Source of the DNA: Sphaerosporella brunnea
Lineage: Eukaryota; Ascomycota; Pezizomycetes; Pezizales; Pyronemataceae
Assembly: GCA_008704415.1 (NCBI GenBank)
Contig: VXIS01000530.1
Span: forward strand, 1-20,125
Reading direction: 5' to 3'
Length of the DNA: 20,125 nt
The translations under genes were made by a program, and so were the position numbers. Under the pieces are notes generated by a model. The model was not told where the DNA came from and searched no databases. It saw only the letters and a list, made by a program, of their open reading frames with translations. Of the stretch, positions 7,743 to 20,125 are shown piece after piece. The stretch's first letter is position 1. Every line of letters starts with the position of its first letter.

Positions 7743-10385
7743 ATGTCCACTACAGCTCCTCACTCGCCAGAGGGAACTAAGTTCATCGAAGACTTCCACA
7801 GCGTGAACCAGTACCATCCGTCAACAACCATGGATCCGGAATCGGATGCAGAAGCCCCCAAGCGCTCGGGTACGCTCAAGAAGACGGACTCGGTGAAACG
7901 CAATATGCCCAAGCGGTCAAGAGCCAACTCAGCCCGCAACGGGCCCAACCTGGGAGATCCCCACTCCAGGAACTCGTTCATCTACACACCGGTTCCTACA
8001 CAGAGCAACCCTACGGAGATCCTCGTCAATCGATTTCAAGGTGAGTTTGCGAACCTGGTTTTTTTGTGCGGCGTGTGTGTGTGTGTGTGTGCAGTTTTAT
8101 TGTTCGTATGTGACCGCGAACGATCATTATGACAGATCTTCTACTCGCCCCCACCCTTATTCTGTCCTTGTGCGGCGTGTTCTTTGGTGGCTAACTAAGT
8201 GGGTTTTTGTACGCAGCTTGGAGAAAAGTGTTGAAAGACTACATTTCGTACTTCCGAGAAGTTCAGGCGCAATATGAAGCTCGCGGCCGAGGAATCCACA
8301 AAGTCACGCAGTCGCTCAATGCCGCGACGAGGCCGAGCGAGTTTGTGACCCAGGGAGGAATCATGGAGACCAATTCTGTTCTCAGCGATTTCCACAAGGA
8401 GGCGACTATGAACGCTAGCCATGCGGCAAAGATTGAGAGCGAGATTATTAACAACTTGACGGGTCTGCGCGGCGATCTGAACTTGAAAATCAAGGAGATC
8501 AAGGCCCTTTCTGGAGACTTCAGGAGTAATGTTGAGAAGGAAATGGAGGCTACAAAGAAGGAGGTTCTGAGGCTGCAGGAGGCCCTGGAAACTCTCGATT
8601 CTAATCCTTCTGGAGGAAAAGATCCGTTAGTATACCCTTATTTCCTCGGCGAAGCTGGGTTACTGAGCTTGTTAGGTATATTGTGAAGCTTGCTGTTGAT
8701 AAGCAGTTGAAGCGTCAATTCGCCGAGGAGAACTATATTCACAGGGTAAGTAATTGGACCTCATGCATCGTCCTTGCTTCTGTCAACTGACAAGATTCAC
8801 AGGCCTACCTCAACCTTGAATCGAGTGGTCGTGAGTTGGAGAAGATTGTTGTCGGCGAGATTCAAAAGGCTTATGCTACCTACGTCAAGATTCTCACAGG
8901 AGATGGTCAGGAACTGATCGATTTCGCCCTGCGTCTCACCACCACGACTCTTCGCCTTCCGGCTGATCGCGAGTGGAATGCCTTCGTCGAACGGGAGACA
9001 CACATGGTTAATCCAGCCATCCCCATGAGGGCAATTGATGAGATCGAATATCCTGGGCATCACCATCCTGCTGTGACCGAGGTTCTGAGCGGAATGTTGG
9101 AGAGAAAGTCCAAATATCTGAAATCATTTACCCCAGCATGGTGAGAATTTCTAGCCGGTCTCTGCATGCTTCATATTCATCCTACCTAACGCATTCCAGG
9201 TATATCCTCTCGCCAACGCATCTGCACGAGTTCAAAACTCCGGACCGTGAACGCGATCAAACCCCGGTGATGTCTTTGTATCTTCCTGAGTCGTCACTTG
9301 GGAAGTATTCGGAGCCGTCTGCTACCTCTCACAAATTTGTGTTGAAGGCTCGTCAAACAGGCACTCTCCATCGTGGACACAGCTGGGTGTTTCGTGCCGA
9401 ATCTCATGAGACCATGCTTGAGTGGTACGAAGCAATCAAAAAGCTCAACGAAGTCTCTGGGGCCGAGAGGAATGCCTATGTGCGGAGCGCCGCGGCGCAT
9501 AAGCGTTCCGATTCGCATGATTCTCAGTCTTACCTTTCTGACAACGGCTTGGAAAACGACGAAGCCGATGAGGTCCCTTACTCTGGCAGGGCTAGTGAAA
9601 TGGAATATCAAGTCGAGAACCACGAAGATCTCCAGCTACCCAAGCGTCCGGAAGCTGGACGCTTCCCCAGCGACATCCAAGTTAACCGGGGACTGGAGCA
9701 TCGAGAGTCGATCAGCGGGGGTTCTAGTACGTCTGCGATCGCTGCTGCTACGGCACTTCCTGGGACCTCCTTTCCTGCCGATCGAAAAAATGATGAGGAC
9801 TACAAGGACTACGCCCAGCAGCGTGTCGGCCTCGTGCCCCATGAGATTGATTCGCCTGGAGTCAATTGTTTCGTCGCCGCCGGTTTAGCTCAGCCGCAGG
9901 CCAGAAAGCCCGTCCAGGTCCCCAGGGCGACCGGCTTTGGCATCGACCCGATTACTGGAGAGCCAGAGAGCGAGTTTGGCCCTTCTCGGGACAGCAACAG
10001 CCCCACACACATTGATTTCCTCAGTGCAGATCGGCCTGTGAGAGCTTCACCCGAGTCAGATCCCCGCGAGCCGATCCCTCCCAATGAAGCGGATCCCGTG
10101 GCGATGCACTCTGGCTCATTGGCTGCTGTGGCGGAAGCCCCTCCTCTCACTGCCGAAGCCCTCGTTCCATTGTCGCCTGTTATTGCACCCGCCGCGGCCG
10201 TGGTCGACGAGAGCGTTCCAACCAGCGGTGCTCCTCTTAACACCGCTGGATATGCCTCCAAGACGGGATTCCCAATTCTTAACCAGGCTAACACTGACGA
10301 CAGGCCTCACCTCCACAGGCAGTACTCTAACAAAGGTACTATCAGTGACCTAGACGTGCCTGGAAAGTATCCTAACAAGGTCTAA
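7743..10385 (+). CDS. SLM1: Slm1/Slm2-like BAR and PH domain protein (TORC2 effector)
   Basis: There are five exons: 7743-8040, 8217-8625, 8676-8745, 8803-9140 and 9200-10385. The frame-consistent GT..AG introns are 176, 50, 57 and 59 nt, and the product is 766 aa. Residues 1-98 are polar and basic. Residues from about 99 (FQAWRKVLKDYISYFREVQ) to about 340 form the helical F-BAR-like region. Residues about 352-459 form the PH domain (ERKSKYLKSFTPAWYILSP, LHEFK, HSWVFRAESHETMLEWYEAI). The remainder is low-complexity Ser/Pro/Glu-rich tail ending DVPGKYPNKV. Slm proteins bind PI(4,5)P2 at the plasma membrane near eisosomes and relay TORC2 signalling. The start at 7743 was chosen because upstream in-frame sequence has no ATG and is compositionally odd; ATG 7830 is an alternative. 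Part of the last exon is duplicated at 19151-19355. Confidence 0.88.
8073..8091. repeat. (GT)n microsatellite in SLM1-like intron 1
   Basis: A run of about nine GT dinucleotides sits inside the first and longest intron of the SLM1-like gene. It is simple sequence with no evident function. Confidence 0.85.
9936..10148 (+). repeat. Source segment of the SLM1 gene-fragment duplication
   Basis: This part of the last SLM1-like exon (from GFGIDPITGE to AEAPPL) recurs at 19151-19355. From 9972 to 10148 the two copies are identical over 177 bases. The first about 28 bases differ at a few positions, and the distant copy has a net 8-base deletion in a GAGAG-rich spot (around 9960-9971). Confidence 0.95.
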
Positions 10386-10793
10386 GAACACTCTGATACT
10401 TATGCTCAAAATACCTGTTTGTTTCCTTTAGCTGGTGGCTGTTCTTCCAAATTCAAGTTTCGTTTCGCCTGTGCTGGCCTCGCTTTGTTCTGTTTGGGTT
10501 TCTTTGTGATTGCTTCGGAGCGGGAGTTCTCGAGAGTAGAGGCTTTCGTTGCTTGTCACTTGATTTGTAGGTATTCTATATATCATGCCATTGAACTGGA
10601 TAGGCTGTGTCCCTCCGCAATCCCACAACACGCCGACCGCGAGTCACTGTACTTGTGCTCTGCAGCTGCCATGTAAATGTAAGCCACTTCCAGTCTGGAA
10701 AAAAGGTCTGTGTGGGGGCACCCATGATAGTAACATATCGTATCTACTATGAGCCATTTTATTTCCGGTTGCCTTGGCGTGGCCGGCAGTTAA
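10386..10793. other. 3' flank of SLM1-like gene up to the replicon breakpoint
   Basis: This holds the SLM1-like 3' untranslated region and spacer. No gene is recognised. Homology to the Rep-like sequence appears to begin at about 10794. The open frame continues left to 10644 but loses all family resemblance. Confidence 0.5.
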
Positions 10794-11555
10794 ATTTAGC
10801 CCGTGTTTTTTGCCGCCGATATTGAAAGCGTCGGCACGTCGGATGTGGGGTGGTTTTTTGTTTGGTCCCAGTCCCAGGTCGCCGATGACGTGGAAATGCG
10901 GCGTTCCGTCTTTGTGGAATTCCCTAACCGCATAGAATCGCTCGAGGCGATGATCGAATTCTCGAATCAGTGTGTCGAACTCCTCCACGGTGAGGTTGCA
11001 CTTCGGGTATGTCAGGAAGACGTATCGTCGGTTGAAATCGAAAACTTGTTTTTTTTTCCGCATCACGGGTTCACCGTTTTTTTTGAGTTTTGGGTTACCG
11101 TCTTTGTCTAGGACCGGCTCCAATTCATCGGATGGGGGTTTCATCATCTCGATGTCGCCGAACACACCTTCGGGTATACTGTCGAGTATTTCTCGTTGAT
11201 ATACGTCGTCGTCAGTGTTGTCCGCCAAAATATCGAATTCGTCGGCCTTGGTTTGCGGAATGTCGGGTATTTCCGGCGTGTCGTTGCTGTTCGGTTGCCA
11301 AGATGGTTGCCTGTCTGGGATCGATGGTCCTGAGGCCGAGGGTGCTCGGCTCGGCGTTCGCGAAGGAGCGGGACGGATTCCGATTTCGTCATCGCTGTCG
11401 ATTATGATTCTGCGTTTTCGCGGGTTCATGGGCGTGGTGTTTGCATCATCGTCGTCGATAAACTCCTCGTCCGATTGATGCGCCGTTGATTCCGGTGATC
11501 GCGGTTCTGACATGATTATGTCATCATCGTTTGCAATGAACAGTGGAGAGTCCAT
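10644..11555 (-). pseudogene. Geminivirus-like Rep (HUH endonuclease), truncated before motif III
   Basis: An open frame of 303 codons from ATG at 11555. CRESS-DNA Rep proteins nick the origin and start rolling-circle replication. Motif I is FLTYPKC (180-186) and motif II is HFHVIG (220-225). A stretch resembling the geminivirus GRS element (FNIGGKKHGLN, 244-254) follows. After about residue 254 (near 10794) the resemblance ends: the catalytic YxxK of motif III and the whole superfamily 3 helicase are absent, and the last about 50 residues read into unrelated DNA. Residues 1-165 are an acidic, Ser/Pro-rich, presumably disordered extension with a basic PRKRR patch; known Reps usually begin close to motif I. 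No stop interrupts the retained part. It lies leftward of, and opposite in strand to, the TAATATTAC hairpin. Helitron Rep was considered and does not fit. Confidence 0.82.
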
Positions 11556-11616
11556 TATGTAATGACAGTTCGGTTTGGTTGGGTGGATTGGTGTGGATGG
11601 TCTCTGGTGTGCCGCT

Positions 11617-11619
11617 TAA
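11617..11619. repeat. TAA target-site duplication, left
   Basis: TAA immediately precedes the left terminus GGGCCCGTTTGG and is repeated at 14897-14899 after the right terminus. A 3-bp TAA/TTA duplication is the hallmark of PIF/Harbinger insertion. Confidence 0.85.
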
Positions 11620-11635
11620 GGGCCCGTTTGGCTGC
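11620..11635 (+). repeat. Harbinger left terminal inverted repeat
   Basis: GGGCCCGTTTGGCTGC, paired with 14881-14896; it differs at two positions of 16. Confidence 0.88.
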
Positions 11636-11770
11636 CGGATTTTTGTGCGGGACAATGGTGCGTGACAACGACGTAACGCGAACGCTGGAAGGCGGAACAC
11701 CACTGCTGTTTGGCAACGTCAGTAGAAACGTCAAGAAACAACGTTCGGACCCCGCGGAACGTCATTTTTG

Positions 11771-11793
11771 AAAAGTAGGTCTGAGCTACTTTT
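11771..11793. repeat. Subterminal hairpin, Harbinger left end
   Basis: AAAAGTAG (11771-11778) pairs perfectly with CTACTTTT (11786-11793) around a 7-base loop. It lies about 150 bp from the left terminus and could be a subterminal recognition structure. Confidence 0.55.
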
Positions 11794-11834
11794 CTCGTTG
11801 TTCCAACGCTGAACTCCATCTGCTGCACCCCGCA

Positions 11835-11887
11835 ACACCCGCAACGCACCTCCCGCAACGCACCTCCCAACCCTCGTCGGAATCCTC
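11835..11887. repeat. Left subterminal repeats of Harbinger
   Basis: Two tandem copies of a CCCGCAACGCACCT-type unit are followed by one copy (11866-11887) of the GAGGATTCCGACGAGGGTTGGG unit, in inverted orientation. The latter unit is amplified at the right end (14499-14694). The single copy lies about 250 bp from the left terminus; the nearest right-end copy is about 200 bp from the right terminus. Confidence 0.75.
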
Positions 11888-11926
11888 GTTCTACTCCATA
11901 ACGAACAGCCACTTTTTCCAAAAAAA

Positions 11927-13166
11927 ATGTCGCATATTTTGTCCACCGCTTTATTGAGAAACCTTGCTGTTGCTGCAGCAATTGGAGTGCTGTGGATGTA
12001 TACCAAAAAACCCTGCCGCACGTCAGTTTTATCGGGCGCAGCCTACGTCAATGAGCTGTTACACGGACACGAGCGAAGAGCGTTTGAGGTCTTTCGGATG
12101 CCTATTACTGTCTTTGAAGACTTGTGTACATGGCTACGAAAGAATACAGAAATTGATGATACGAAAGAACTAAATATAGAAGAGTCTGTAGCAATTTTTC
12201 TATATATTGTGGGGAGGAACGCATCCAACAGGGACACGCAGGAGAGATTTCAGCACAGTGGGGAGACTATTTCCCGGTAAGAACCAGCTTGAGACAAATA
12301 ATAATAATAACTAAAAATTGTGCAGCCATTTCCACCGTGTCCTGGATGTGCTACTTCTTCTGTACAATGCCGAGGTTCAGCTACCGCACAATGAGGCAGA
12401 CACCAATCTGCCTGCTCGAATCAGCAATAATCCCAAGTTTTATCCGTTCTTTCGCAATGCCCTTGGTGCAGTTGATGGTACTCATATCGCTTGCACTATT
12501 TCGGCCGCCGACGCAGAACCCTTTCGCAACCGTAAAGGCTTTCTGTCGCAAAACGTAATGGCGGCATGTAATTTTGACATGTATTTTACCTACGTTTTGG
12601 CTGGCTGGGAGGGTTCAGCTTCAGATAATACCGTGTACGACGATTCACTCTCTCACGGTTTCCATGTCCCGCCAGGACAATATTACCTGGGCGATGCTGG
12701 CTACAGGCTACGCAGTACACTTCTCGTACCATATCGAGGTGTCCGATACCATCTGCGTGAGCAAGCTCGCGCCAATCTACGACCTGCAAATCCACAGGAG
12801 TTATTCAACTTACGACATTCTCAAATGCGAAACGTTATTGAGCGGATTTTTGGCACGTTAAAAAAGCGCTTTTAAATTTTGGGCTCTCAAGTGGAATACC
12901 CCATCGAAGACCAGATAAAATTGGTATATGCTTTAACGGCATTACAAAATTTTATCAGACGGCGAATGCACGGAAAAGAGGATATTTTTTATCATCAAGC
13001 AGACAAAGAGCGTGTATTATGTGAGGAAATTGACTTGAATGAAAGTGCAGAGGGAGAGTCGGTACGGGAAGAGCTGGATATAAATAAGCGCTGGCGAGAT
13101 AGTATGGCTGATGCTATGTGGGAGCAATATCAAACAGTTACAGGGCGACGTGGTGATGGAAACTAA
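11927..13166 (+). pseudogene. HARBI1-like DDE transposase with one in-frame stop
   Basis: The exons are 11927-12276 and 12326-13166, with a 49-nt GTAAGA..CAG intron. The N-terminal about 117 residues (ERRAFEVFRMPITVFEDLCTWL and following) are the helical domain usual for fungal and animal HARBI1-like proteins. The catalytic domain shows AVDGTHI (Asp167), GWEGSASDNTVY, GDAGY (Asp240) and NVIERIFGTLKKRF (Glu289); I read Asp167/Asp240/Glu289 as the triad. Codon 300 (12873-12875) is TAA, directly after KKRF. The same frame then continues for 97 codons with the normal C-terminal family sequence (YALTALQNFIRRRM), so this is a nonsense mutation, not the true end. A C-to-T change of CAA would explain it. 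The ATG follows an A-rich run. Confidence 0.88.
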
Positions 13167-13247
13167 AAGCTTTGATTTTTTTTATTTTTTTAAATTTTTT
13201 TTGTGTAATATACAGTCTGGCTTTGTACTCCTTTCATTGCACTACTG

Positions 13248-14343
13248 TCATTCCTCATCCATAATATTTGTCTCTACCCAGTCGTCCCGCCTCTCACCTT
13301 CGGGCAACGCCAAAAAAATCCTTGCCTCATTCTCATTCCCCAATAATCGGTACCCAATCCTCATCTCTTCCTTCGATAATTTTTTCCCATATTGCTTTTC
13401 AAATAATTTATAAGCTCTTTCAAGCCTGGTGTCTACCTCCCGACTAACATCCGCCACTTCTCCGATAGCGTATGCGATCTGCTGGCCTGAACTTCGCGTC
13501 TTTGGTTTCTGTTTGCCACGACCCTTTTCAGTGTCCACTGCCATGGCCGTGTCTGATCCATCACTTGTTTATTCCGCTGTCTTCACCTCATTTTTCTCCT
13601 TTTTTTTGGACCTTTTACTACGAGTAGTTGAGGGGCCTGACACCTTCTGTCTTTTGAGCGATGGTGGTGGTGTAACTGCTTCGGTCTCTGAAGGGCAAAC
13701 CGACGGACTTCGCTTTTTTGTTGCTGGCTCGGCAACCTCAGCGCTTTTTTCAGCGGCTTCGCTTTCGGTGCGATGGGATGTAATGATGTTGTCTCCAACA
13801 TGAGAAAAATGACCAGTTGCGGCACTTCCAGCATAGAGCTCATCCAACTCTTCAAAATTCTCAAGTTTGTGCTTGCGAAATTTGCTGGCCTTTGGGTGAG
13901 ACTTTAAATATGCCGTCCAAACCTGGTCTGGGACTGTAGGCTTTTCGCCATCATATCCAAAGCCACTGCATCCAGTCAGGTCTTTGAAATTTTTCCAGTC
14001 GCGACGCAGCTAGTCACATTCAGCGCTCCTTTCCAGTATTCAAGTTGTATGTAGAACAAACATTTGTCATTTTATTCTTGACTTGATCTAGACTCAGCTC
14101 CAGCTGATTGCGATGATTTACCGCATGTCGAGCTTCGTTCCACGCCCCATCTTTCCAACCTGTATCGGATTTCTTCCCCTGGTGTTTGAGCTCTAGCATT
14201 TTCCTCACCAGCGTTGCTGTCTGCTCATCTGACCAGAGGTGTGTGTTTTTTCCAGCTGCAGTCGCTTTCGCATCCGGGGGTGGAGAATCCGGGGGTGGAG
14301 AATTTGACTTTGTGGATTTCTTCGCTTTGTGGAGTCTCGGCAT
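13248..14343 (-). pseudogene. Myb/SANT-like DNA-binding partner of Harbinger, one in-frame stop
   Basis: Exon 1 is 14343-14062. A 52-nt intron follows (14061-14010, GTTTGT..TAG), then exon 2 from 14009. Residues 1-30 are basic with a duplicated SPPPD. Residues about 34-150 form a Myb/SANT-like domain (HLWSDEQTATLVRKMLELK, QVKNKM, then across the intron LRRDWKNFKDLTGCSGFGYD and VWTAYLKSHPKASKFR). A Lys-rich linker follows. TAA occurs at 13569-13571 (codon 241), yet the frame stays open for 106 more codons with a conserved-looking C-terminus (EKQYGKKLSKEEMRIGYRLL, then RIFLAL). The stop is therefore probably a mutation, again explicable by CAA to TAA. In Harbinger systems the Myb-like protein binds terminal DNA and brings the transposase into the nucleus. 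Confidence 0.83.
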
Positions 14344-14498
14344 AATTGCGGATAATTATGGAATAATTGCGAACTTCTCAGGATGGTAGAGCGCAGTCTG
14401 ACGATTCTGAAAAATCAAAAATCAGGTCAATTGGACAAGAATTGAGAGTGCTGTTGAGGAAAAGGTTCGGGTGCTTACTAGACGAGGATTTCCGCCGA

Positions 14499-14694
14499 GA
14501 GGATTCTGACGAGGGTTTGGTCGAGGATTCCGACGAGGGTTTGGACGAGGATTCCGGCGAGGCGCCGAGAGTTTGGACGAGGATTCCGACGAGGGTTTGG
14601 ACGAGGATTCCGACGAGGGTTTGGACGAGGATTCCGGCGAGGCGCCGAGAGTTTGGACGAGGATTGCGACGAGGATTCTGACGAGGGTTGGGAC
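14499..14694 (+). repeat. Minisatellite in Harbinger right subterminal region
   Basis: The array has 24-bp units (GAGGATTCYGACGAGGGTTTGG plus WC) and a 32-bp variant unit containing GGCGAGGCGCCGAGAG. The order of unit lengths is 24, 24, 32, 24, 24, 32, 12, 24, summing exactly to 196 bp. The 24-24-32 block is itself repeated (higher-order). Open frames across it on both strands are repeat translations, not genes. Confidence 0.92.
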
Positions 14695-14809
14695 GCTGAT
14701 GTGATGCAGACCGTGAAGATGGAACTCTGGAGGCGGTGGTGCGCGCAGCAGCGATAGTAGGCACTTGATGTCACCAAACGCTCATGCACCGCAACCTAGT
14801 GGAGCGACG

Positions 14810-14861
14810 AAAGTTCTAGTTTCCATTGTAACTTGCTCAGTTACAACGCCCTAGAAACTTT
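14810..14861. repeat. Imperfect 23-bp-arm hairpin, Harbinger right end
   Basis: AAAGTTCTAGTTTCCATTGTAACT and its partner (14839-14861) form a long imperfect stem with several mismatches around TGCTC. It lies 35 bp inside the right terminus. It may be a transposase-binding or fold-back feature. Confidence 0.6.
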
Positions 14862-14880
14862 GACGTTCCTACCCTCCCGT

Positions 14881-14896
14881 GCATCCAAACGAGCCC
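14881..14896 (-). repeat. Harbinger right terminal inverted repeat
   Basis: Read inward on the minus strand it is GGGCTCGTTTGGATGC, the partner of 11620-11635, followed outside by TAA at 14897-14899. Confidence 0.88.
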
Positions 14897-14903
14897 TAAG
14901 TAG

Positions 14904-14936
14904 TTTTGGGAGTGCTGTTCAGTCGCGGCGGGAGTG
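14904..14936 (+). repeat. Origin iterons, Rep side
   Basis: GGGAGTG occurs at 14908-14914 (within TTTTGGGAGTGC, 14904-14915) and at 14930-14936, immediately before the hairpin. In geminiviruses and relatives, Rep recognises short repeats next to the hairpin; these are the candidates. Confidence 0.7.
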
Positions 14937-14937
14937 A

Positions 14938-14978
14938 AGCGTTAGACACTGGTCTATAATATTACAGTGTCTAACGCT
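14938..14978 (+). other. Rolling-circle origin hairpin with TAATATTAC
   Basis: A perfect 14-bp stem (AGCGTTAGACACTG 14938-14951 with CAGTGTCTAACGCT 14965-14978) encloses a 13-base loop. TAATATTAC at 14957-14965 fills the loop's 3' side; its last C is the first stem base. TAATATTAC is the invariant nonanucleotide of geminiviruses, nicked by Rep between TT and AC. I find no other copy of the nonamer on either strand of the window. The flanks (GGGAG before, CTCCC after) could extend the cruciform. Confidence 0.88.
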
Positions 14979-15042
14979 CCCCCCCAAATTGATTTTGTAT
15001 GAGGCATTTTTGTTTTACCGGGGGGGTTCAGGGGGGGAGCGT

Positions 15043-15112
15043 GTCCCATTGTATGGGACTTTTTTTTTTTTTGGGAGTGCCAGCTCCACTCCCATTGCTA
15101 CCGTTTACTCCC
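15043..15112 (+). repeat. Distal iterons and small hairpin
   Basis: GTCCCAT (15043-15049) pairs with ATGGGAC (15053-15059). After a T run, TTTTGGGAGTGC recurs at 15069-15080, identical over 12 bases to 14904-14915. An inverted CACTCCC lies at 15087-15093 and a partial ACTCCC at 15107-15112. Together with the proximal copies this gives four full iterons around the hairpin. Confidence 0.7.
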
Positions 15113-15660
15113 ATACCTCAGTTTTGTTTCGGAGTTTCCTTTTGAGGCACGTTAATTTACTCTTGTCACCTCATTTTTGCTTATCAGTTTCCCTTTCAGC
15201 TACATTAATCTAATTTTAATGTCATCCATGTTACCTTTTAAGTGTGACGTATCGTTTCATATATTTCTCGGCAGTTGTGGTCATATCATTCTGTTATATT
15301 ATTTTTGATTTATAATAGGTTTTTGTTATCCCTGTTGCTGACCGCATTCATTTTCTATAAACGTGTACCGGATTACGGGACTAGTGCCGGATGCGGTTAG
15401 TTTTTGCTGGTGTGGTGTTGGCCTGGTGCGGCTGGATTTTGTATGCATTGATTATTCCCTGCTTGCACACCTTTCCGTTTACCATATAAATCGAACGTTT
15501 TCTCCCATTTGATCGTGTCTGGTTTTGTCTGTCGCTGCAGCTGTTATTTTATTCCTGTCATCACCACACTTGGTCGGTACATAACATTTTTCGGTTTTGG
15601 CTTGCCGTAGTGAGGAGTTTGTGCTGTCGTGGTCGATGCTAACGTGTTTGTTGTTTGTAG
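15113..15660. other. T-rich stretch, probable leader or intron
   Basis: This 548-base stretch is T-rich and A-poor on the plus strand, without a convincing reading frame. It ends in a pyrimidine/G-rich TTTGTAG (15654-15660) that looks like a 3' splice site for the next reading frame. A matching GTTAGT donor is seen near 15396, but the upstream exon cannot be fixed. Confidence 0.4.
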
Positions 15661-16221
15661 TCATCTACTACCGTCTCAGCCGATGACCTTGTCCTTCGCA
15701 TCGCCGCGTTGGAGAGCGACATGTCTCGCGCATTCGCGACAGATGGCAAATCTCGAGCTATTGCAGTCCAAGGTTCGCTTGTCACCGGTCTTCGCCCTTT
15801 GACTACGGAGGTTGTGCGTTTGGGCCTTGATGGTCAGAAGAGGTCGCAAATCTTAGAACAAGGTTTATTCGAGGTTGGCGAAAGTGTCAGGATTATCAGT
15901 CAGCAAGTTAACGGAGTTGTGGGCCATTTGACAAGTTTTCAAATCGGCGTGCAAGAGTCGTTTGCCGGGTTGCCAGCAAAGCTTGGGGAGCGTCTGAGCT
16001 GTGTTGAAGACCGGGTGCAGAAGCTGGATGATAGTGTTAGAATAATGGATGAGGGTATCAAGGGGCTGGATCGTCGGCTGCAGTCGATCCAAAGCCGACT
16101 CGACGTGGTTGAGTCGATTCAAAGCCGACTCGACGTGGTTGAGGAACTTGTAACGGCGGTTGATAAGGTTGGACGAGATGTTCAGCAGATTATGCAGTTG
16201 TTTTCGGAGCGGCAAGATTGA
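15661..16221 (+). CDS. Coiled-coil protein, unknown function (5' end unresolved)
   Basis: An open frame of 186 codons to TGA at 16219. The first ATG is at 15721, but coding-like sequence (SADDLVLRIAALESD) runs up to a likely splice acceptor at 15660, right after an in-frame TAG. An upstream exon is therefore probable. The product is almost all helix, with repeated hydrophobic heptads (LRPLTTEVVRLGL, VEDRVQKLDDSVRIMDEGI, LDRRLQSIQSRLDVVE) and no Cys-rich or catalytic motif. A 10-residue unit (SIQSRLDVVE) is duplicated in tandem. I do not recognise the family. It reads away from the TAATATTAC hairpin in the virion-sense direction, so it could be a gene of the replicon; this is inference only. 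Confidence 0.5.
   Translation, partial: SSTTVSADDLVLRIAALESDMSRAFATDGKSRAIAVQGSLVTGLRPLTTEVVRLGLDGQKRSQILEQGLFEVGESVRIISQQVNGVVGHLTSFQIGVQESFAGLPAKLGERLSCVEDRVQKLDDSVRIMDEGIKGLDRRLQSIQSRLDVVESIQSRLDVVEELVTAVDKVGRDVQQIMQLFSERQD
16081..16140 (+). repeat. 30-bp in-frame tandem duplication
   Basis: Two adjacent 30-base units (ending CGACTCGACGTGGTT) differ at two positions. They lengthen the coiled coil by ten residues without breaking frame. Confidence 0.9.
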
Positions 16222-16494
16222 GAGGGTTTTTTGCTCGTCACCGAGGCTTCTGGCACTTTGTTGTTTCGGTTTTGCGTGGGATTGCACTTGTGATCTTGTA
16301 TTCGTTCATTCACTGTGTTACTCTGGAAATTACACTTAACATGGTATTTTTGTGTTACATTTTGCCCTGACATTCCTCCCAATAGAAATCACACTCGTCA
16401 CTGGCGCCTTTCTGTGCGGTATCGTTCACTAAACTCCATGTTAGGCTTCTATGGCTTAAAACATATGTGTCGAGTGAATTACCTGTTCGATCTT

Positions 16495-17564
16495 TCAAAG
16501 CTCTGTGTCCTCAACTTTGACGACTGCCTCCCAGTCTATCGAGGTGTCCGAGTATTCTGACGGCGCTGGCCCTGCGTTGGTTTGCGCAACCCCCAATGTT
16601 CGAGACCCTGTGGGCTGCTCCTTTTCGTCGACCTGGTGGTCGTTGTATGCCGATTTCGACGGACACGGGGTTTGCGGCGAGGACCACACGAAGTGCATTT
16701 CGCATGTACACCAGGGTCCTTGGCATATGTGCCAACCGCCGGCGACAGAGCAATTGTCGAACTCGCAAGCGGTACACGGAATTAACCGACGGCGTGGTGT
16801 CCTTGGACGGTGTGGTGTCCTCGGTGACACTTGCGGGTTTTGTGTCCTCGGTGACCCAGGCGGCGTGAGTGGTCGCGTCGGCCATTCCTCTGTGGTCACA
16901 GTTTGATAACTGCAAACGCTCTCGGTGTCGCTTTGAAGTTCGGGGTTGATCGGATTTTCGGGCACAGCGACGCAGGAGTCCATGTATTTAACCGCAAATT
17001 GTTGATACTTTGCGTAGCTTTCGTTGATTCGCACCGTCAGTTGGCGTCGGATGATGTGTTTACTCCGTCGTGTGTTTTCCAATTTGGCGATCAGTTTGAC
17101 ACATTTTTCGTACGCGACTTGCAGTTCTATTGCGACTATGCGAAGTTGTATTCTTACGTCTGGCGAAGTAGTCTTCTGGGCTCGTTCGATTACTGCATTC
17201 GCGTAGTATGCAGCCGTGCACAGGCCGTATACTGAAATTCAACAGCCGTCGATCATCGGTCTTCCTCGGGCTTTGTCCGCAAAATAAAGTTTGATGAATT
17301 CGAATGCTAGTCGCGGGTCCCACGGGTCGGCAGGGAAGCGCAAGCTGTTTATTACGCCCAAGGTGTGTCTATGTCCGCTTCTTGGCGCGCAGTGAGGTAT
17401 TGCCGGCGCCATACGCGGATGCGGTCGTCAAAAATCGGTTGGCGGTTATCGGGCAGCGTGTTTGTCTGCAACAGAGAACAAACGGCCAGTGCGAAGATGC
17501 ACAAAACGGTATGTCTCATGGTATTGACGTACTCGCCGGCAGAGTGGAATACGAACGAAGACAT
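16495..17564 (-). pseudogene. Cysteine-rich orphan gene, disrupted frame, unknown function
   Basis: ATG at 17564 opens 70 codons (MSSFVFHSAGEYVNTMRHTV and following) with a short hydrophobic segment (VLCIFALAVCSLL), ending TAA at 17352. A second frame overlapping there reads coding-like sequence (VINSLRFPADPWDPRLAFEF) to TGA at 17239-17241. The same frame then resumes and runs to 16495. It is helical and basic at first, then Pro/Arg-rich (TPPGSP, SPRTPHRPRTPRRR). Next comes a Cys cluster CTACEFDNC with GWHICQGPWCTCEMH (C-x2-C-x4-C-x8-C-x4-C-x-C-x2-H), a possible zinc site, and then an acidic tail (DWEAVVKVEDTEL). The long third part has no ATG before about 16983. I infer one gene broken by a frameshift and a stop, or an unresolved intron pattern. 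A TATAAAATA lies about 95 bp upstream. Confidence 0.4.
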
Positions 17565-17656
17565 TGTGATTTTGATGTATATGGAGGTAAGATTGGTTTT
17601 GTTGCTGAAGTAGTCTGTGGGAGTGATGGGAGCGTTGGTAGCGTGGGAATCAGGTT

Positions 17657-17688
17657 TATTTTATAATTGTGTTTCACGCGCATGCGCG
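17657..17688 (-). promoter_or_regulatory. TATA box and 12-bp palindrome upstream of the orphan gene
   Basis: TATAAAATA-type sequence (minus strand, 17657-17667) lies about 95 bp before the ATG at 17564. It is preceded by the perfect palindrome CGCGCATGCGCG at 17677-17688. A promoter role is inferred from position. Confidence 0.4.
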
Positions 17689-18333
17689 ATTGCCGGGCGG
17701 GTCTTCCTGCGCTCCTATAGCCGTGTGTGTCTGTTTGCACTCCTTATCGCGCGGGTTGTCTTGCGCTTGTTCTCCTATACCTTAATCTGTTTGTATACGT
17801 TTCGTGTTACTTGCCGCTTCTGCGCCGGTATCTCTTCATGCCGAAATGCAATATATATGTGCCGTGTCGCAAAATAGTATGGTGTGCGTGTCTTGTGCTC
17901 ACATTTAATATATTGTCGGTGAGCCCGAGTCCGCACCGATGCCCGCAACTCTGCGCATCGGGTGGTGCGCGAAAGTCGCGCACAGGCATGTTGATTAAAT
18001 TATTTTGGCTTTACCCGAAACAATGCAGAAGGTGCGGTCAGCCATGCATTGGTGCTTTCCTTTTCGGACAATGTGGTTGGAACAGTCGCGCACTTGCCGC
18101 TGCGTTGTTTACTTTGGTTTTCTGTAATCACTGTAATTAATGAGCTTCCTGATTTTTCATTGATCGTGATATGCTACTTGCCGTGGTGTTTTTACTTTTG
18201 TGACAATGTTACTGTTTCGTTTGGGTTGCGTGTTTTTCCTTTGAGTAACAAGTACTGAATAATGTGTCGCTACGTAAGAGTTTTATAACGGACGTGTTGT
18301 CCTTCCACTGGACCTTGTCCCCTAATACCCACC
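17689..18333. other. Orphan spacer with two GC-rich hairpins
   Basis: No gene is recognised. A 7-bp stem CCGATGC/GCATCGG (17936-17942 with 17955-17961) is followed at once by GTGCGCGA/TCGCGCAC (17965-17972 with 17976-17983), an 8-bp stem with a 3-base loop. The rest is T-rich on the plus strand. Confidence 0.6.
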
Positions 18334-18872
18334 ATGCCGTTGTCTGCCGCCGAAGAATTCTTTTCTCCTCCCTGGTCGCATGCCAGGCTTGATCCTGCCA
18401 ACCGGTTTCGTTTTCGTCCTCCTGTGGGTGTAGAATCTTATACTGGTTCCATGTTTGCACATCCTACTCGATTTTAGTATAATTCTGAGTCTCTTCGCAT
18501 TCGGAAGTATCCCGATTATGATTTTTGTAAGTTCGTTTGTCCTATTCTTGGGGTTTCGCTTATGTGGCAGCCATGTCGAAGTTTGAATGTTTTAACCTCG
18601 ACGATGTGATGGCGGCGGTGTTGGAGCTCTGACGAACATATCATCGGGATATTGCACGGGCTATTGGTGGCAATCCGGGGGAGCAATGGCCAATTCACGC
18701 CTGCTATCCTGTTGTGCCTGTCCCTAATATTCTGGCTGGCATGGTCCTACTTCGTAGCCTAGTTCTCCGGTTTCTTAAGGGTCAGAGACTTTCCCTGAAA
18801 CATTTGCATACAAAGGAGAGGAACCGTGGGATGCGCAGGGTCATCGCAGCATGGAGGTTGCATCAGACATGA
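18334..18872 (+). pseudogene. Eroded reading frames, unknown
   Basis: Behind a good start context (CCCACCATG, ATG at 18334) 47 codons are open (MPLSAAEEFFSPPWSHARLD and following) to TAG at 18475. In another frame, ATG 18573 opens 100 codons interrupted once by TGA at 18630-18632. After it the sequence (RTYHRDIARAIGGNPGEQWP) continues to TGA at 18870. The amino-acid composition looks protein-like and the breaks look like decay. No family is recognised. Confidence 0.3.
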
Positions 18873-18895
18873 TAAGATAAGATAAGATAAGATTA
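18871..18895 (+). repeat. (GATAA)n microsatellite
   Basis: Four GATAA units plus one GATTA. It marks a low-complexity boundary between the orphan region and the stretch leading to the SLM1 fragment. Confidence 0.85.
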
Positions 18896-19150
18896 CATAC
18901 GACGGCTGTTTTGTATGATTTACTGACCTGCCCGCTTTACAGACATCCACGCATTATCCCACATCCCCGCGTTGGGTATTACCAAAAAGAGACAGAGGAG
19001 GAGTGAGGAGCAAGGAGGAGGGGTCCCCCCTGGGGACACCGACGAGCGACGAGGGACGACGGCTAGTTAGCATTTCGTTACTGATTAATGAAGCTATCCT
19101 TGGCAAATGGTTTCGCAGTGGGTTGTGTTTAATAAAACCAAGAATGGCGG

Positions 19151-19355
19151 TTTGGCATTGACCCGATTACTGGAGAGAGAGTTTGGCCCTTCTCGGGACA
19201 GCAACAGCCCCACACACATTGATTTCCTCAGTGCAGATCGGCCTGTGAGAGCTTCACCCGAGTCAGATCCCCGCGAGCCGATCCCTCCCAATGAAGCGGA
19301 TCCCGTGGCGATGCACTCTGGCTCATTGGCTGCTGTGGCGGAAGCCCCTCCTCTC
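19151..19355 (+). repeat. Duplicated SLM1 gene fragment
   Basis: About 205 bp copied from the SLM1-like last exon (9936-10148), same orientation, about 9.2 kb away. The last 177 bases (19179-19355) are identical. The first about 28 bases have a few substitutions, and there is a net 8-base deletion in a GAGAG run. It has no start codon or regulatory sequence of its own. The frame happens to stay open, but there is no reason to think it is expressed. The right edge falls exactly at TGTCACGG (19356). Confidence 0.95.
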
Positions 19356-19947
19356 TGTCACGGCGCGAGTTTGGATGGAGTTTTCCGACTAAGCTACCGG
19401 CTTTTACTCTCAATGAAATCGGCTGGAACTCTCAGATCTAAGGCTTCAAAGGATGCTGATTCATTTGCTGTTCTCAAATTTACCCCCCCGTTGATGGTTG
19501 TCACGTGGTGAGGTTCGGAAGTGTGGGTTGTTTGTGGTGTCGTGATGAGGCTCTGTAGGGAGACTCGGTGGGGTGGCTCCGAGCCGAGGTTATGTTCGGC
19601 TACCACGTGGCGTGGCGCACCGCAGTCACGTGATTGCTATAAGGGGCCTTCGCTTCCGCTTTGTTGTTTGTTTTCCCTTTCCTCTTTACTGAACCTTCGT
19701 GTGTCAATCTGAGTACCTTCGTTCCAATCTAAACCCTGACCGTGCGCGTCGCGCCTCTCGTCCTGCCTCCGGATCCTGTCCCGGCCCCTCGTTCCCGAAC
19801 CTGTTCGATAACCCTCTGTACGCGAGTACCTTGGGCCCCTCCAGCCTGATCCCGACCCTCTCCGTTACACTAGGTTCAGTCACCCAAAGCCTAACCTACT
19901 CGCTCTGTCTGTCACATCGCCACTCCCCCCCCTCCTCTTGCAACACC
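19356..19947 (+). mobile_element. Possible LTR or 5' region of a retroelement
   Basis: The gene-fragment copy ends abruptly at 19355 and new sequence starts TGTCACGGCGCG, the TG opening typical of fungal LTRs. CTCTC just before could be a target duplication. The segment has three CACGTG boxes, a TATA box at 19638, a pyrimidine-rich leader, and TGTCACA near 19910-19916 as a possible end. I see no tRNA primer-binding site after it and no second LTR in the window. The alternative is an ordinary promoter and leader of the following gene. Confidence 0.35.
19502..19644 (+). promoter_or_regulatory. Three CACGTG boxes and a TATA box
   Basis: CACGTG occurs at 19502-19507, 19604-19609 and 19627-19632. 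TATAAGG follows at 19638-19644, about 300 bp before the ATG at 19948. This is a plausible bHLH-responsive core promoter; function is inferred from motif order. Confidence 0.45.
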
Positions 19948-20125
19948 ATGGCCGCCTACCACGACCTCCAAATCCCTCAGGAGCTCTGGGCAGCCATCGA
20001 AACTGGCGCCCAGGCGCCCCCGGAAGAAGGCTTCCCTCCAGAAGAGCGCGATCAACGTTTGATCGACTTCGCCCATATGGCACAGCAACTCTTGGCCTGC
20101 GAACCCCCACCCAACCTGGAGGTGG
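19948..20125 (+). CDS. Unidentified protein, 5' part only
   Basis: ATG at 19948 in a strong context (CAACACCATGG) opens a frame that runs off the window after 59 codons. It starts MAAYHDLQIPQELWAAIETG and is rich in Pro, Ala, Glu and Gln (APPEEGFPPEERDQ, then AHMAQQLLACEPPP). There is no recognisable domain. With the putative LTR upstream it could be the start of a Gag-like protein; it could equally be a cellular gene. Codon use is C-rich, unlike the T-rich orphan region before it. Confidence 0.45.
   Translation, partial: MAAYHDLQIPQELWAAIETGAQAPPEEGFPPEERDQRLIDFAHMAQQLLACEPPPNLEV

Follow-up and report, generated by a model that had tools for sequence, protein, structure and literature searches.

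The 20,125-bp contig C480 of the fungus Sphaerosporella brunnea (order Pezizales), analysed over its entire length and referred to here as the window, carries at the 3' end of a BAR/PH gene a locus that is best explained as the relic of a replicon. Its truncated Rep gene and its origin-type hairpin very probably derive from one integrated, now defective circular rolling-circle replicon, either a virus of the circular Rep-encoding single-stranded DNA (CRESS) type or a plasmid. A first-pass annotation of the sequence had proposed a geminivirus-like replicon relic integrated in a fungal genome, and this proposal is supported, with the addition that the Rep breaks off ahead of its active-site tyrosine. 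The genome searched comprised 50.57 Mb in 640 contigs and is presumed to be a version of the published S. brunnea assembly, which is described as 51.6 Mb in 872 contigs from a single-spore isolate sequenced with PacBio at 907.91x coverage (PMC6908789). Mixed haplotypes were judged unlikely because the published isolate derives from a single spore, if the assembly is the same (PMC6908789).

The Rep frame starts at an ATG at 11555 on the minus strand and holds the words FLTYPKC and HFHVIG, from which a Rep-type HUH domain had been proposed. This assignment was borne out by profile, sequence and fold. Pfam Gemini_AL1 matched above its cut-off (E 7.1e-7, 29.7 bits, cut-off 24) over profile positions 2-55 of 113, a range that includes only motif I (FLTYP) and motif II (HxH). 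The best PDB match by sequence was the wheat dwarf virus Rep 6we0 (E 3.2e-8), and the best match of the structure model by fold was the wheat dwarf virus Rep 7kik (E 5.1e-5 over 76 columns), with low TM-scores of 0.21 (query) and 0.41 (target), much of the query being modelled at low confidence. The HUH part itself was modelled well, with block means of the predicted local distance difference test (pLDDT) of 84-97 across residues 141-230. Geminivirus and genomovirus Reps were among the 50 matches listed from a viral structure library, with 17 matches at E <= 0.001, and the REP_ORF2-G2P profile remained below its cut-off on the Rep. A profile search had been named beforehand as a possible refutation, and it assigned the Rep-like part to an HUH family.

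The Rep is truncated ahead of the catalytic tyrosine and the helicase. The metagenomic protein P0003 aligns with it at 53% identity over 81 columns, up to window position 10800, and then runs on through motif III, whose YINK lines up with YITK in a Rep from the PDB, towards a helicase, whereas the window Rep stops before motif III and has no YxxK with the catalytic tyrosine. The edge of the element had been placed at 10794, and is corrected here to the end of the Rep homology at 10800. No credible match to residues 233-376 of P0003 turned up in the window or across C264:1-9000 (best E 0.51), the protein beyond residue 230 had no match anywhere in the genome, and neither a C-terminal superfamily 3 (SF3) helicase nor any other remaining part of the Rep was found in the window or genome. 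A genome search with PF00910 returned 33 weak matches (best E 0.005, five over the cut-off, none on C480), which were taken as general ATPases, and all 14 controls were also positive. Contigs C105 and C419 each carry two PF00910 matches with the same scores and near-same spacing, which suggests duplicated or redundant assembly. No second Rep copy was found in the genome by protein, by Gemini_AL1 family or with the longer P0003. The NCBI gene model P0001 was set aside, as 20 residues present in the window frame, which partly align with P0002, a second metagenomic protein, are missing from it, and its end residues seem by eye to come from the host segment. A Rep without nicking tyrosine and helicase should not allow the locus to start its own replication now, and, judged from its sequence, the locus is not a working replicon.

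The hairpin arms (14938-14951 and 14965-14978) are paired at 14/14 positions. The perfect stem described in the first-pass annotation thus stands, but the nonanucleotide TAATATTAC, described as lying in the loop, has 8/9 bases there, the 3' arm already starting with its last C. It is the sole perfect stem of at least 10 bp (loop 6-20 nucleotides) found in the window, and 40 dinucleotide shuffles combined gave 10 stems of 10 bp, two of 11 bp and none longer. On both strands of the window TAATATTAC occurs once (shuffle mean 0.05), and the folding z-score of the hairpin DNA is -5.47, with 0/200 shuffles folding equally well. The hairpin cannot credibly be put down to chance, in line with the earlier estimate that such a nonamer hairpin would be very unlikely to arise by chance near a Rep. 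A second copy of the hairpin was not found in the genome.

The GGGAGTG repeats reported beside the hairpin were recovered as four copies of GGGAGTG/CACTCCC in 213 bp (seven in the entire window), two on the Rep side and two, one of them inverted, on the far side. Such four-copy clustering was reached in 0/2000 shuffles for GGGAGTG and in 4/2000 for any 7-mer, the latter being the fairer figure because the word was picked after being noticed. By analogy, these repeats are putative Rep-binding sites. The Rep reads away from the hairpin on the opposite strand, and its ATG lies 64 + 38 = 102 bp from the hairpin when the intervening transposon and one TAA are left out of the count, as first estimated. 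The Rep of geminiviruses likewise lies on the strand opposite to the nonamer, and the geminivirus origin layout noted at first sight was confirmed.

The Rep and the hairpin are separated by a PIF/Harbinger-type transposon that inserted later. Pfam DDE_Tnp_4 (E 1.3e-23) and Myb_DNA-bind_3 (E 3.2e-9) match within it, and its first 681 bases have nine further matches on seven other contigs. A scan for ends of this family covered seven loci, including the window's own (L016): L021 and L022 have both ends with TAA flanks, L018 and L020 have one end beside TTA, L019 has one end beside neither and L017 has no end. The copies at L021 (1428-1690, contig C619) and L022 (1428-1691, contig C135) are about 265 bp long and, with both Harbinger ends and TAA flanks, resemble miniature inverted-repeat transposable elements derived from this family. 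Within the Harbinger of the window, positions 14499-14695 hold tandem repeats of a GAGGATTCCGACGAGGGTTTGGAC-like unit.

A protein search with the HUH region of the Rep matched only the deposited S. brunnea protein itself, and a search with the full-length protein added P0002. A profile of the window Rep and P0002 (E up to 10) retrieved 14 proteins: the deposited one, 12 with Gemini_AL1 and one unrelated ABC transporter. P0002 has 48% identity to the window Rep over its alignment, extension included. In a midpoint-rooted tree of 13 rows and 116 columns, built without named geminivirus or genomovirus sequences and with two long branches elsewhere, the window Rep, P0002 and P0003 formed one clade with support 100/99. 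P0002 and P0003 are encoded on metagenomic contigs of 2124 and 2357 bp, and both share with the window Rep, besides the HUH domain, an acidic extension at the N-terminus that spans about 150-170 residues. Ahead of the FLTY-type motif there are 179 residues in the window (F180), 157 in P0002 and P0003, and 6 to 40 in the other 10 relatives. The endonuclease domain of CRESS Reps is described in a structural review as sitting at the N-terminus (PMC8780604). From these comparisons the window Rep, P0002 and P0003 are assigned to a putative extended-Rep lineage with no match to a named one.

Coordinates of the features discussed, in window positions
Feature	Position	Strand	Remarks
Host gene pieces, BAR-like and PH domains	8207..10385	+	Pfam BAR_4 (frame 8207-8686) and PH_20 (frame 9138-10385); adjoin the block
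Left copy of duplicated host-gene segment	9936..10740	+	Diverged tail after 10695
Junction sequence, unknown origin	10741..10799		Between host segment and Rep; outside local alignments to C264 and P0003
Truncated Rep	10800..11555	-	Acidic N-terminal extension, HUH motif I (FLTYP), motif II (HFH); without motif III and helicase
TAA target duplication, left	11617..11619		
PIF/Harbinger-type transposon	11620..14896	+	Frames 11927-12280 and 12318-12875 (+; second with DDE_Tnp_4); Myb-type protein 14020-14343 (-)
TAA target duplication, right	14897..14899		
Putative iteron GGGAGTG	14908..14914	+	
Putative iteron GGGAGTG	14930..14936	+	
Origin-type hairpin	14938..14978	+	14-bp perfect stem, 13-nucleotide loop
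Nonanucleotide TAATATTAC	14957..14965	+	
Putative iteron GGGAGTG	15073..15079	+	
Putative iteron, inverted	15087..15093	-	CACTCCC on +
Open frame, 186 amino acids, coiled-coil type	15661..16221	+	Beyond the origin, on the side away from Rep; candidate replicon member
Open frame, 247 amino acids, helical start, Cys- and Pro-rich rest	16495..17238	-	Candidate replicon member
18S ribosomal DNA (rDNA) fragment	19077..19145	-	Adjoins right junction
Right copy of host-gene segment	19151..19355	+	Cut by long terminal repeat (LTR) element at CTCTC; apparently resumes in C264
5' LTR of later retrotransposon	19356..19869	+	Presumed 3' LTR is C264:739-1252

The Rep and origin lie in a block (10741-19150; about 5.1 kb without the transposon) between two copies of a host-gene segment. 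Window 9936-10740 recurs as 19151-19355 plus C264:1253-1846, and the copies differ by 1/205 and 3/547 substitutions (4/752 aligned bases, up to 10695), with eight gap columns near the start. The two LTRs are identical at 505/514 bases and have CTCTC on their outer sides, followed in C264 by the rest of the host segment. Most simply, the block was inserted with duplication of host sequence, because the left copy belongs to a longer gene; that the entire block arrived at once is less sure. The 18S fragment at the right junction has 86% identity to C98:64355-64423, inside an SSU_rRNA_eukarya match (RF01960, E 2.7e-45), and its rDNA nature is known only via this C98 copy. An Rfam scan of 10700-20125 at E 0.1 gave nothing. 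The 18S rDNA match on C98 (L006 1300-1569) is at least 270 bp long and is cut by the start of the scanned stretch. Elsewhere in the window, 191-214 and 482-505 form a perfect 24-bp inverted repeat with 267 nucleotides between its arms, perhaps a small inverted-repeat element.

The right-hand part of the block contains two open frames. The frame at 15661-16221 matched PHROG 12015 (function unknown) at E 7e-7 over 66 residues, read from 15709, and had only matches below cut-offs in Pfam; both were read as coiled-coil likeness. The frame at 16495-17238 had one Pfam match (E 0.22), and its 247-residue product folded alone with a mean pLDDT of 44, too low for comparison. Upstream of it, open frames at 17060-17660 (-) look, by eye, like the first part of this gene, either decayed or spliced. 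Searches of the rest of the genome and of viral contigs found no clear relative of either frame (the genome gave one match at E 0.2), and a Pfam scan of 10/28 listed frames gave none over the cut-off. The Gemini_coat profile had no match in the genome and its control also gave none, which makes the result uninformative. One viral-contig match (L012, 4666 bp) was rejected, as it rests on the word DKDGNPK and contains TAATATTAC only with one mismatch; its frames resemble, by eye, what we take to be phage terminase and portal proteins. The remaining viral-contig scans gave no relative.

Compared with Geminiviridae, the locus is alike in its HUH domain family, in having wheat dwarf virus Rep as the nearest solved structure, in the TAATATTAC nonamer, the hairpin and the adjacent repeats, and in the placement of the Rep opposite the nonamer. 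It differs in the acidic N-terminal extension before the HUH domain, the larger block, the fungal host, the truncated Rep and the absence of a recognised coat gene. The hairpin with TAATATTAC, an origin feature of the family, is present, but the relic is not placed in Geminiviridae because defining Rep features are missing. With Genomoviridae (SsHADV-1 and kin, fungal single-stranded DNA viruses) it shares a fungal host and an ambisense layout with a negative-sense Rep (PMC10731770), and genomovirus Reps are among its structural matches. SsHADV-1 carries TAATATTAT and measures 2.2 kb (PMC10731770), in contrast to TAATATTAC, a block of about 5.1 kb and no recognised coat protein here, and the available text of that paper makes no mention of an N-terminal Rep extension for it. 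Geminivirus-like Reps in fungi, truffles included, were reported by Liu et al. 2011 (PMC3198968), both as genes and as remnants, and the main text of that paper does not contain the words 'nonanucleotide' and 'stem-loop'. In the titles and abstract openings searched, a scope outside supplements, preprints and most subscription papers, nothing described a fungal chromosome that carries a Rep together with its origin.

The integration can be pictured as follows. In the intact replicon, Rep would have bound the GGGAGTG repeats and opened the hairpin, and its motif III tyrosine would have nicked TAATATT^AC, the nick site of geminiviruses, with Rep driving rolling-circle synthesis. The circle would have been broken within rep and linked to chromosomal DNA, through repair synthesis restarting upstream or through recombination via a captured host segment, leaving a direct repeat of about 0.8 kb. 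The host duplication is compatible with either route.

The first-pass annotation had offered a CRESS virus, a plasmid or a Rep-driven transposon as the source of the locus; the integrated replicon is supported, and the transposon is not, the locus being single-copy with no enclosing terminal repeats seen. A chromosomal transposon carrying a Rep, moved by Rep or by a co-carried transposase, has a precedent in the same order: in Tuber melanosporum, Rep is described as occurring in 42 copies or remnants, the element having terminal inverted repeats of 37 bp and containing two transposase frames (PMC3198968). The two cases are alike in that a fungus of the Pezizales has a geminivirus-like Rep in its nuclear DNA, and here a Harbinger transposase lies beside the Rep. 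The Harbinger, however, is delimited by ends of its own with TAA flanks, and the Rep lies outside it; no second Rep or origin copy was found in the genome, and no inverted repeat of at least 20 nucleotides was seen with its ends near those of the block. A 22-nucleotide pair of 82% identity (2908/16814) spans Rep and origin but starts far outside the block and was taken as chance, and no Helitron profile was among the general Pfam matches of the window. A transposon origin of this kind is improbable. Even less probable is that hairpin and Rep are unrelated and adjacent by chance: a second copy that would confirm their association was not found, but the sole perfect stem of at least 10 bp in 20 kb has the canonical nonamer, adjoins a Rep and is accompanied by repeated words.

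A piecemeal build-up, in which separate events brought the Rep fragment, the origin, the rDNA piece and other DNA between the two copies of a duplicated host segment, would leave only 10800-15112, without the transposon, as replicon-derived. It would account for the rDNA at the right junction, the junction sequence of unknown origin and the lack of a recognisable viral gene in 15113-19076, but it sits less well with a single block between near-identical repeats and with the geminivirus-like spacing and orientation retained by Rep and origin, and is regarded as rather unlikely. The confidence placed in it overlaps with that in a single integrated replicon because the core is common to both and only the extent differs. 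Several observations weigh against the integrated replicon: nothing in 15113-19076 was recognised as a capsid gene or another hallmark gene, the block exceeds the 2.2 kb given for SsHADV-1 (PMC10731770), no relative with a readable origin and no second copy was seen, the PHROG library gave E 0.2 at best on the Rep, and the repeat word was chosen after the fact. C480 was joined to C264 on the strength of matching LTR ends and a 5-bp duplication rather than reads, and the LTR pair (9/514 differ; seven transitions) is more diverged than the host duplication (4/752) that it must postdate, an excess that may reflect gene conversion or, for a multicopy repeat, the consensus formed at contig ends.

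What the integrated replicon adds to the known fungal Reps is an origin retained along with putative iterons, and a lineage marked by the extended Rep, which also occurs in two metagenomic contigs. A tentative further suggestion is an undescribed fungal rolling-circle lineage whose Rep has an acidic, perhaps nuclear-targeting N-terminal module and whose circles are possibly larger and plasmid-like; the truncated S. brunnea Rep could in that case be kept as a protein that binds the origins of related replicons and blocks them. A chromosomal copy with origin and putative repeats ties the Rep lineage to a replication signal and a host, and the relic makes a search for the free replicon in Pezizales possible, through which the question of virus versus plasmid may be addressed.

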